From: Deltaproteobacteria bacterium
GTDB lineage: Bacteria > SAR324 > JACQKK01
Direction: 5' to 3'
Assembly: GCA_029858505.1 (NCBI GenBank)
Contig: JAOUEW010000002.1
Location: 168,851-232,850 of the forward strand
Length of the DNA: 64,000 nucleotides
Shown: piece after piece, positions 1 through 52,787 of the stretch
How the letters are laid out: each line of letters starts with the position of its first letter
How positions within the stretch are numbered: position 1 is the first letter of the stretch
Position numbers and translations under genes: made by a program
Notes under the pieces: generated by a model
Told to the model about the DNA's origin: nothing
What the model saw: the letters and a program-made list of their open reading frames with translations, nothing else
Database searches by the model: none

Positions 1-505
1 ATGCTCGAATCCGTTGGCTATTCTTTTTATCCGCTCGGATGGGTTGGGCGAACGGAAGCAAGCAACGCCCAAACGCCATTGAACTCCCCCTCTCTTCGGG
101 AGAGGGGGGCGGGGGGTGAGGTCTCATTAAGCGGTGAGTGATCTTTTCATCCGCTCGGATGGTTCGGGCGAACGGAAGCAAGCAGCGCCCAAACGCCATT
201 GAACTCCCCCTCTCTTCGGGAGAGGGGGGCGGGGGGTGAGGTTTCATTAAGCGGTGAGTGATCTTTTCATCCGCTCGGATGGTTCGGGCGAACGGAAGCA
301 AGCAACGCCCAAATGCCATTGAACTCCCCCTCTCTTCGGGAGAGGGGGGCGGGGGGTGAGGTCTCATCATGCGGAGAGTGATCGTTTCATCCGCTCGGAT
401 GGGTTGGGCGAACGGAAGCAAGCAGCGCTCAAACGCCATTGAACTCCCCATCTCTTCGGGAGAGGGGGGCGGGGGGTGAGGTTTCATCATGCGGAGAGAG
501 TGTTG
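1..505 (+). repeat. 120-bp tandem repeat array, left copy (4 units)
   Basis: Four near-identical units with an exact 120-bp period; the palindromic core (CCCCTCTC, TTCGG, GAGAGGGG) recurs at about 91, 211, 331 and 451. Each unit also holds the palindrome CATCCG-CT-CGGATG. The array ends about 10 bp from the stop codon of the amrS-like gene. The first 40 bases of the window match, in reverse complement, the outer flank of the right array near 52.75-52.79 kb. The array may continue beyond the window. Such G/C-rich palindromes between genes resemble REP-like extragenic elements; no transposase or RAYT gene is nearby. Confidence 0.95.
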
Positions 506-8967: not shown

Positions 8968-9150
8968 GCACTCCTGCGGTGTTCGATCAGCCGTCACGCT
9001 TCTGAGCCTATTCACACTTCGGGGTTTGGTTCTTGAGGGCGGTGTGTCTTCCCCCTTGCGGGGCAAGCCTAAAGCCTTTATACCGGATCCCACCTGCACA
9101 AAGCAGGTTCAGAACTCCCCGGCAAACCGGCACAGGCGGGAGTGTTTTTT
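8968..9150 (+). ncRNA. ssrS: 6S RNA
   Basis: About 180 nt. The ends pair: CACTCCTGC at 8969-8977 with GCGGGAGTG at 9136-9144, directly followed by eight T. The 5' half contains TGTTCG, then CTGAGCC and ATTCACAC, in the order seen in E. coli 6S. The 3' half contains AAGCCTAAA, then ACCTGC-ACAAA-GCAGGTTCA and CCGGCAAACCGGCA, matching the proteobacterial 6S pattern. Inner stems GTTCT/AGAAC and GGTTTG/CAAACC close the central bubble. 6S RNA binds sigma-70 RNA polymerase in stationary phase. A possible promoter (TTGTCT at 8925, TAAATA at 8949, spacer 18) lies upstream. The usual neighbour ygfA is not here. Confidence 0.88.
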
Positions 9151-11483: not shown

Positions 11484-12584
11484 ATGGAATCCCATCCGAT
11501 GGAACGGGTTGTTTTGGCCAGCTTGGCGGCGCCCCTGCTGGCCGTGGACAAAGAAGGGGTGGTGACCTGGGCCAACGAGGCGGCCGCGCACTTTTGGCGC
11601 TCTACCCCCCAGGGGCTGGCAGGGCAGCCAGTGCACCGCCTGTTTGGGGGAAATACCCTGGTGGCCGATAGCGTGACCCGGGCTTGGCAAGAAGAACAAC
11701 CCATCCAGGTGGATGCCATGCCGTTGTTTCAGGCCGAAGGCATGGACCCGGTATTGCTGCGTATTCATTTTTTCCCGTTGATTCGCCCCAACGGGCCGCC
11801 GGAAGGTACCCTGCTGTTGTTTTGGGATGAGACCGCCCGGGAGAACCGGGAGGCCGACAAGCACAGCCGACAATTGGCCGACACGGTGGGGAACATGGTG
11901 GCCCGGCTGGCCCACGAGCTGCAAAATCCCCTCAGCGGCATCAAAGGGGCCACCCAGCTGCTGGCCCGGCAGACCTCTCAAGATTCGGCCATTCGGGAGT
12001 TTCCCCAGGTGATTTTGCGGGAACTGGACCGCCTGGAGCGGCTGGTGAAAAACCTGCTGTCTCAGGGTGGGGAACCGCCCTTGACCAAAAGCCGGTTCAA
12101 CCTGCACGAACTGCTCGACACCGTGATCTGGTTCGTGCGCAATTCAGCCCCAGGGCAACGGGTGGAGCGGATCTACGATCCTTCACTGCCCGAGCTGTAC
12201 GCCGACCGGGACCGGATGCATCAGGTGTTTCTGAACCTGATGAAAAACGGACTGGAGGCCGCGGCCCCTGGGATGCCCCTCACGGTGGGCACCGCCTTTG
12301 CCGCCCCCTGGGAGGCCCGGGCGCGGCTGCCCGGCCCCCGCCGGAACTTCCTGCGGGTGGATGTGATGGACCGGGGGCCAGGGGTCGCCGCCAAAGATAT
12401 GCCCCGGTTGTTCACTCCTTTCTTCACCACCCGCAAACAGGGCAACGGTTTGGGGTTGTCGTTATGCCAGTTGATTGTGCGGGCTCACCAGGGGCATGTG
12501 CTCTACGCCCCACGCCATGGCGGGGGCGCGGTGTTTTCCGTGTACCTCCCCATTCTCACGCCAGAAGAAATGGAAGGAAAATAA
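11484..12584 (+). CDS. NtrB-like PAS/histidine kinase
   Basis: 366 residues, soluble. An N-terminal PAS-like domain (about 8-115) precedes the H-box with H144 in RLAHELQNPLSGIKGA, closely resembling NtrB/GlnL. The N-box (NLMKNGLEAA) and GNGLGLSL G-box follow. The length and motif suggest a nitrogen-regulation-type kinase, but no response regulator gene is adjacent, so the partner cannot be named. AGGA lies 8 bases before the ATG. Confidence 0.85.
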   Translation: MESHPMERVVLASLAAPLLAVDKEGVVTWANEAAAHFWRSTPQGLAGQPVHRLFGGNTLVADSVTRAWQEEQPIQVDAMPLFQAEGMDPVLLRIHFFPLIRPNGPPEGTLLLFWDETARENREADKHSRQLADTVGNMVARLAHELQNPLSGIKGATQLLARQTSQDSAIREFPQVILRELDRLERLVKNLLSQGGEPPLTKSRFNLHELLDTVIWFVRNSAPGQRVERIYDPSLPELYADRDRMHQVFLNLMKNGLEAAAPGMPLTVGTAFAAPWEARARLPGPRRNFLRVDVMDRGPGVAAKDMPRLFTPFFTTRKQGNGLGLSLCQLIVRAHQGHVLYAPRHGGGAVFSVYLPILTPEEMEGK

Positions 12585-12915
12585 ATCAAACACTTTGGGG
12601 TGGATAATAAAGCAATCCCATCTTCCGCAAAACCCCCGTTTTCATAAAAACCCCTGTCATGGCATGACCTTCCAGAAAAAAAAGGATGAATTCTGAGAGC
12701 GAAGGGGTTCATTTTTCCGCGGAAGTACCGAAAGGAAGATGGGAACGAGATGATGGTAGTGTCAGGATTGGGGTGAGAGCGTCGGACAATCATCTTGGGC
12801 GGTGAATTTGATAAAATGCTGATATGAAAAAATAAATACAAAAATATTTGTGTGATGTCGCAGGAAAAGGTGTGGAAAGAAAATCCATCCTTTTCCAAAC
12901 GACCACACAAAATGC
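12585..12915. other. intergenic, no gene seen
   Basis: AT-richer than its surroundings. Open frames here have no ribosome sites and no family resemblance. The end of this stretch leads into the promoter at 12916. Confidence 0.5.
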
Positions 12916-12943
12916 TTGACTTTGTTGGTGAATTGGTTATGAT
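12916..12943 (+). promoter_or_regulatory. strong sigma-70-type promoter
   Basis: TTGACT at 12916-12921 and TATGAT at 12938-12943 with a 16-base spacer; this is among the closest matches to the sigma-70 consensus I noted in the window. Transcription would start near 12950, immediately before the structured RNA candidate and about 315 bases ahead of the next coding region. Confidence 0.65.
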
Positions 12944-12949
12944 CCGCAT

Positions 12950-13115
12950 ATACATTAGGTGAAGGCAAGGAAGGCACAACGCCCACGGATGCGGCGCACC
13001 AACAGTAAAGCGCAACGCCCCTCGAAAGGGAGGGGGGCAACCGTAGGCGGTGGACGAACATCCCGCAGGGGGGATTGGTGAACGGACGCCATGGGAATCC
13101 ATATCCGTGGGTCTT
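12950..13115 (+). ncRNA. candidate structured RNA or leader, family not recognised
   Basis: Nested pairing. P1 is CCCACGGAT (12982-12990) with ATCCGTGGG (13103-13111). P2 is GGCG (12993-12996) with CGCC (13087-13090), extended by CACCA (12997-13001) with TGGTG (13076-13080). Inside are the hairpins CCCCTC/GAGGGG, ACCG/CGGT (13040-13051) and ATCCC/GGGA (13060-13074). Between P2 and P1 lies ATGG-GAAT-CCAT (13091-13102). I do not recognise TPP, cobalamin, c-di-GMP, glycine, RNase P or SRP signatures. It could be a cis-acting leader of the secreted protein gene at 13265, or a separate small RNA. Confidence 0.5.
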
Positions 13116-13204
13116 TCGCCAACACACGTAACCGCCCAACAATCCCTTAATCAACGCCCATCTTTTCCAGGTTTGTTGCTGGTTAGGGGGCCCTAAGCAT
13201 GTTT

Positions 13205-13219
13205 GCATCATTATGATGC
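13205..13219. promoter_or_regulatory. inverted repeat, operator-like
   Basis: GCATCA-TTA-TGATGC forms a perfect 6-bp inverted repeat about 45 bases before the ATG of the secreted protein, followed by a second GCATCA half. It may be a protein-binding site or a small hairpin; no terminator T-tract follows. Confidence 0.35.
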
Positions 13220-13264
13220 ATCATTGTGCTTGGTGAACATCATTCATGGAAACTGGAGGGTGGC

Positions 13265-13939
13265 ATGAGGATGACGAGGATGTGGAAGGGTTGCGTGGCC
13301 GGGATTTTGGGGGCAGGGTTGACGTTCTCTGGGGTTGCCTGGGCCGGAGAAGATGTGGTTCCCCCGCAGAAATTCGCCAGTTTGGTCGATACCTATGGGA
13401 AACCCCAGGGAAGAATTTCCGGTCGGATCTTGTTTCCCTCTGAATACAGCCAACGATCGGTGACCTTTAGTTTTTCCGGGCGGTCGTTCGTGACCCTTCC
13501 GGATGGACGGTTTGTGATTGAGCGGATTCCCCTGGGGCAGCATGTTTTGGTGGTGCGCACGCTGGGGTATGACCCGGTGGAAATGCACGTCAAGGTCAAC
13601 TCTGCCAGCCCGCTGGCGCTGAAAGACATTCGCATCAAAATGGCCCGTGGGCAGGTCAGCGGTCGTTTGGTCACGCCAGACGGCTCTTCGGCGGCCAATA
13701 TTTCTCTCAAATTGACCGAGCATGGGGGGGCCACCACCACGTCTTCCGATGGCCTGTTTACCTTCATGGGGGTGCCCGCGGGCTCCCATACCCTCTTGGT
13801 GGAAGATCCCCGCTTTCAAACCCCCGGAGACATTCAGGTGGAAATGGCTCCGAACAGCCGCAGGAACTTAGGGGTCATTCAAGTATCTAAAAAAATGACG
13901 ACCACGGGGCCAGCCCCCACGGCGGTATTGGTGAAGTAA
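13265..13939 (+). CDS. secreted protein with carboxypeptidase-regulatory-like repeats
   Basis: 224 residues from an ATG with GGAGGG 5 bases upstream. A signal peptide ends at ...SGVAWA with cleavage before GEDV. Two beta-sandwich repeats of the carboxypeptidase regulatory-like type follow (PDGRFVIERIPLGQHVLVV and DGLFTFMGVPAGSHTLLVE). Such domains are structural or adhesive in periplasmic and outer-membrane proteins; no catalytic domain is present. It is preceded by a long putative leader with a structured RNA candidate, which suggests post-transcriptional control. Confidence 0.75.
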   Translation: MRMTRMWKGCVAGILGAGLTFSGVAWAGEDVVPPQKFASLVDTYGKPQGRISGRILFPSEYSQRSVTFSFSGRSFVTLPDGRFVIERIPLGQHVLVVRTLGYDPVEMHVKVNSASPLALKDIRIKMARGQVSGRLVTPDGSSAANISLKLTEHGGATTTSSDGLFTFMGVPAGSHTLLVEDPRFQTPGDIQVEMAPNSRRNLGVIQVSKKMTTTGPAPTAVLVK

Positions 13940-42038: not shown

Positions 42039-42385
42039 GGAATTCTCCAATTGTTGAATCAGGATTCCAATACCTCGTTTTCTCTTCCTTCTCCCTCTTT
42101 CTACTCCCTTTTCTGCTGCTTCTATTTCCTCTTCCCGCTCTCTCCCTCTCCAACAACACCCCTCCCCTGCCCCCTGACGGGGGCATCCCCTCCCCGTCGG
42201 AGATGGGAACCGCTCGAAGCCGATGGGTTATTGATTTGCTTCCTTTCGGTTGAATCATCCAGACGGATTCTATTCTCCATCCTTCGGCCTAAGCGTATTG
42301 TCCCTCCACGATGGGGAGGGACAGGCACCAAAGGTGCCAGGGAGGGGTGCTGTTGGAAAATCAGTTTTCCGCAGGCATGCCCAAG
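42039..42385. other. intergenic region, pyrimidine-rich
   Basis: A long C/T-rich run (about 42066-42190) with no gene. It lies between the divergent rimI-like start and the 3' end of pgk. Confidence 0.5.
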
Positions 42386-52051: not shown

Positions 52052-52787
52052 CTCCGCATGATGAGACCTCACCCCCCGCTCCCCTCTCCCGAAGAGAGGG
52101 GGAGTTCAATGGCACTTGGGCGCTGCTTTCTTCCATTCGCCCTAACCATCCGAGCGGATGAAAAGATCACTCACCGCTTAATGAGACCTCACCCCCCGCT
52201 CCCCTCTCCCGAAGAGAGGGGGAGTTCAATGGCACTTGGGCGCTGCTTGCTTCCGTTCGCCCGAACCATCCGAGCGGATGAAAAGATCACTCACCGCTTA
52301 ATGAGACCTCACCCCCCGCCCCCCTCTCCCGAAGAGAGGGGGAGTTCAATGGCACTTGGGCGCTGCTTGCTTCCGTTCGCCCGAACCATCCGAGCGGATG
52401 AAAAGATCACTCACCGCTTAATGAGACCTCACCCCCCGCCCTCCTCTCCCGAAGAGAGGGGGAGTTCAATGGCGTTTGGGCGTTGCTTGCTTCCGTTCGC
52501 CCGAACCATCCGAGCGGATGAAACGATCACTCTCCGCTTAATGAGACCTCACCCCCCGCCCCCCTCTCCCGAAGAGAGGGGGAGTTCAATGGCGTTTGGG
52601 CGTTGCTTGCTTCCGTTCGCCCGAACCATCCGAACGGATGAAACGATCACTCTCCGCTTAATGAGACCTCACCCCCCGGCCCCCTCTCCCGAAGAGAGGG
52701 GGAGTTCAATGGCGTTTGGGCGTTGCTTGCTTCCGTTCGCCCGAACCATCCGAGCGGATGAAAAGAATAGCCGTTGGCTTCGAGCAT
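52052..52787 (-). repeat. 120-bp tandem repeat array, right copy (6 units), inverted relative to the left copy
   Basis: Six units of exactly 120 bp; the core palindrome recurs at about 52082, 52202, 52322, 52442, 52562 and 52682. The units are the reverse complement of those at 1-505. The array begins 11 bases past the decarboxylase stop and ends with the same flank (about 40 bases) found at the left edge of the window. Because 120 is divisible by 3, a frame through the array encodes a 40-residue periodic peptide; there is no sign it is a real protein. Confidence 0.95.

Follow-up and report, generated by a model that had tools for sequence, protein, structure and literature searches.

Does the 680-nt gap between a sensor kinase gene (5' side) and a secreted-protein gene (3' side) in a SAR324 genome hold a new class of structured RNA, or only the promoter and leader of the downstream gene? 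The host genome is a SAR324 (Lambdaproteobacteria; Candidatus Lambdaproteobacteria) MAG, and the stretch of 64,000 nucleotides analyzed here is referred to as the window. The preliminary description had placed in this gap a promoter-driven RNA with several hairpins. The elements of the locus are as follows:

11484–12584, plus strand: upstream neighbour, PAS-HisKA-HATPase sensor histidine kinase (Pfam HATPase_c, HisKA, PAS_4)
12916–12943, plus strand: sigma-70-like promoter TTGACT-16-TATGAT, 10 of 12 consensus matches, with -35-like hexamers also present in eight orthologous loci
12950–13264, plus strand: putative 5' untranslated leader of about 315 nt, deduced from promoter position, start codon, Shine-Dalgarno sequence and the lack of a terminator between them
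13265–13939, plus strand: small secreted protein of 224 aa, a signal peptide (recognized by eye) followed by CarboxypepD_reg domains (Pfam PF13620, E 3.6e-16), with orthologues in the family

The gene starting at position 13265, which encodes the secreted CarboxypepD_reg-domain protein, probably has its promoter and 5' untranslated leader in this region. The near-consensus sigma-70 promoter that had been described is indeed present at this site, and two promoter-like sites were counted in the region versus 0.7 expected. The promoter is followed by a gene in the same direction with its own ribosome-binding site (Shine-Dalgarno GGAGGG at 13255–13260), and no intrinsic terminator-like site was detected in 12500–13700. 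RNA polymerase would accordingly start near position 12950, and transcription would run for about 315 nt and on into the secreted-protein gene. Promoter, 5' region, Shine-Dalgarno sequence and start codon thus stand in the order usual for an ordinary sigma-70 promoter with its leader, with no terminator ahead of the gene; the difference is that the leader is longer here than in the orthologues. Regarding hidden coding capacity, antisense reading frames and a 40-codon frame at 12959–13081 had no Pfam match.

Eight of the nine other genomes of the family encode an orthologue of the secreted protein, at 33–45% identity, and none was detected in 31 genomes of the sister family. A lipobox-like cysteine (such as LGGC or AAC) ends the signal sequence in most relatives and is absent in the host genome and in one relative (G003), as judged by eye. 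All orthologous loci feature a long reading frame upstream, recognizable by eye as a kinase. The gene following the secreted-protein gene is mgtE (14151) in the host genome and one for an NAD(P)H-hydrate epimerase/dehydratase in the five relatives checked; therefore, a link between the leader and magnesium transport is unsupported.

Each of the eight orthologous loci has TTGAC or a close variant of it downstream of the long reading frame, and this -35-like hexamer is located 66 to 267 nt 5' of the start codon as placed. Since TTGACA or TTGACT occupies the -35 position in seven of nine loci, the host genome included (TTGCGA and TTGTGA in the remaining two), the position of the promoter next to the secreted-protein gene appears to be kept across the family; this comparison is a listing of -35 hexamers without shuffle control, and a scan with a strict -10 rule misses sites. 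The preliminary description had left open whether the RNA is a leader or a small RNA, and the promoter-like site at the same place in orthologous loci speaks for the leader.

The leaders themselves are unrelated and of very different lengths, which, like the promoter match and its counterparts in the same slot, is a direct observation. Syntenic leaders measure approximately 43, 57, 63, 65, 167, 194, 219–255 and 239 nt, and their alignment to the host leader was no better than that of shuffled sequences. Conservation of the structure in homologues, which had been suggested as a check, was thus not borne out, the syntenic leaders of the eight relatives showing no detectable similarity. A protein-anchored search for further orthologous loci yielded seven loci, most of them apparently already in the set and one repeating the leader of the relative G005. 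A contig titled Chloroflexi, L053 (JACZSI010000071.1), has the same locus of kinase, leader and secreted protein as the SAR324 relative G005, which is probably due to a binning error.

Searches beyond the syntenic loci gave a similar picture. At the DNA level, no convincing homologue was obtained in 57 other genomes (best E 0.005 over 25 nt) or among phage and plasmid records and viral contigs. A covariance model search of 52 SAR324 genomes, with no second genome of the genus among them, recovered only the leader itself and one hit of 16.6 bits lying within an open reading frame; the model was built on a single sequence and would miss diverged homologues. In these two genome sets, neither of which includes another member of the same genus, homologues with conserved structure as expected for a new structured RNA class were thus not encountered. 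Screening against Rfam 15 at gathering and relaxed thresholds revealed no family reaching or nearing its threshold, and the orthologous loci likewise had no match. The best hits below threshold, to snoRNA models and Bacillus sRNA models, did not rise above chance, and none of them covered the P1 region described below. This agrees with the earlier statement that no known riboswitch signature fits. Genes for RNase P, tmRNA and SRP RNAs were found elsewhere in the genome, as was 6S RNA; the leader therefore does not represent a diverged version of any of them. The 6S RNA is encoded at positions 8968–9146 of the window (84 bits). A literature search on RNA in SAR324 retrieved no relevant work.

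The proposed fold was evaluated on the basis of the following elements, all on the plus strand:

12982–12990: 5' arm of P1, perfect complement to 13103–13111, pairing predicted mainly for RNA ends near 13115–13120
13103–13111: 3' arm of P1, perfect complement to 12982–12990
about 12977–13052: local hairpin A by fold prediction, favoured in longer transcripts and exclusive with P1
about 13076–13122: local hairpin B, which displaces P1 and has a predicted probability of about 0.8 once the RNA end lies beyond 13140
13192–13232: A+T-rich hairpin 5' of the ribosome-binding site, by fold prediction

Several hairpins are indeed present in the sequence, as had been described, and the arms of the 9-bp P1 are perfectly complementary. 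The role of P1 as the organizing helix did not hold up, its predicted probability being 0–0.21 in longer transcripts and its occurrence near chance in shuffles. For RNAs ending at 13115, 13130 and 13185, P1 was predicted with probabilities of 0.98, 0.43 and 0.003, respectively; at ends 13264 and 13320 the values were 0.21 and 0.05. P1 is weak in longer transcripts because hairpins A and B compete with it. With growing RNA, hairpin A is predicted to form first, P1 only when the end lies near 13120, and hairpin B thereafter.

Statistically, the proposed RNA fold is close to what chance would give. Among shuffled leaders, 12.7% contain a perfect 9-bp inverted repeat whose loop spans 60–250 nt, and the same holds for 19.7% of the window's 315-nt tiles; for shuffles of the 142-nt P1 stretch, which was cut to fit P1, the share is 1.2%. 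Likewise, the fold energy of 12976–13117 (142 nt, chosen to fit P1) corresponds to z = -2.6 or -3.1 versus shuffles, which 8 of the window's 426 tiles equal or beat, and for the whole leader z is about -1.9 to -2.1. Some features nevertheless count against an ordinary leader: it exceeds the leaders of all relatives in length, its fold is somewhat more stable than those of shuffles (z about -2 to -3), and about 315 nt is long for an unregulated gene.

An alternative is a cis-regulatory leader that would adopt either P1 or hairpins A and B and thereby control expression of the secreted protein, possibly via a ligand or protein favouring one fold. The two folds are mutually exclusive and separated by only about 0–5 kcal/mol, which is within the error of such predictions. 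Moreover, the element TTGGTGAACnnnnnnCATGG, whose duplication was spotted after the fact, has exactly two occurrences in the genome, both within the leader and 155 nt apart:

13075–13094: first copy of TTGGTGAACnnnnnnCATGG, in hairpin B
13230–13249: second copy, just 5' of the ribosome-binding site

However, the 3' arm of hairpin B has a predicted probability of 0.00 of pairing with the second copy, the leader's ungapped self-similarity is matched in 7 of 60 shuffles and so is nothing out of the ordinary, and conservation is lacking among the eight orthologous leaders. Riboswitches and cis-regulatory leaders in Rfam share with the locus the position ahead of a gene and a multi-hairpin fold with competing helices, but here no family comes near threshold, and a conserved core is lacking. 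Such a regulatory leader is therefore considered unlikely. Its genus-specific version, in which the leader would switch between P1 and the two local hairpins with the TTGGTGAACnnnnnnCATGG copies placed in a hairpin and before the ribosome-binding site, is regarded as rather improbable.

It is equally doubtful that the promoter yields a free small RNA of about 165 nt, which would extend from 12950 to about 13115 and be closed by P1. P1 starts 39 nt 3' of the -10 hexamer and would be almost fully formed in an RNA of exactly this extent, but no intrinsic terminator was detected for such an RNA between 12500 and 13700, and thus nothing suggests a transcript ending where P1 is stable. Furthermore, homologues were found in none of the 52 SAR324 genomes, and the identities RNase P, tmRNA, SRP and 6S are all accounted for elsewhere. 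The suggestion of a new RNA class or small RNA consequently finds no backing, given the missing homologues, syntenic conservation and intrinsic terminator and a P1 that is near chance and out-competed.

Slightly less probable still is a leader controlled by CsrA, or an RNA titrating CsrA, with GGA sites as binding sites. CsrA is encoded in the host genome, and the leader contains five ANGGA sites versus 1.5 expected (p 0.01 before correction). Several ANGGA motifs are also typical of CsrB/RsmX-type RNAs, which present many of them in exposed hairpin loops, but here only some GGA sites are predicted to be unpaired, the five motifs are mostly paired or outside apical loops, and terminator and conservation are lacking. 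Pooled over nine leaders, ANGGA was not enriched (11 versus 7.3, p 0.11).

A 120-bp unit with an internal hairpin (CTCCCCCTCTCTTCGGGAGAGGGGG) also forms tandem arrays in the window, at 22–498 (plus strand) and 52054–52766 (minus strand), the two arrays having opposite orientations and lying approximately 52 kb apart. The unit resembles a REP-like dispersed element; it has 44 matches in the host genome, and its hairpin core (about unit positions 63–101) also occurs in four other family genomes, with 22 matches in one of them. Diverged copies lie on both strands at 42149–42353, and the adjoining tile at 42301 folds with a z value of -5.7 on one strand and -4.6 on the other. That the leader is a decayed copy of this repeat is hardly credible and was rejected, since even without filters and at an E cutoff of 1000 a profile of 61 aligned repeat segments found no match in the leader; there is only a weak local alignment of the unit with about 12955–12985, which 9 of 300 shuffles equalled.

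Based on these results, a structured-RNA class is unsupported at this locus, whereas the promoter looks real and the leader is probable. For the ordinary leader, the G+C-rich first half is predicted to fold into ordinary local hairpins; leader sequence and hairpins would be specific to the host genome rather than a conserved regulatory RNA, and presumably have no regulatory role. The case mainly calls for caution: the host genome often shows a 9-bp repeat and several G+C-rich hairpins behind a good promoter, and such features do not by themselves amount to an RNA class. If a comparison within the genus revealed covariation, the locus would represent an unrecognized leader RNA of SAR324, a phylum that has received little study.
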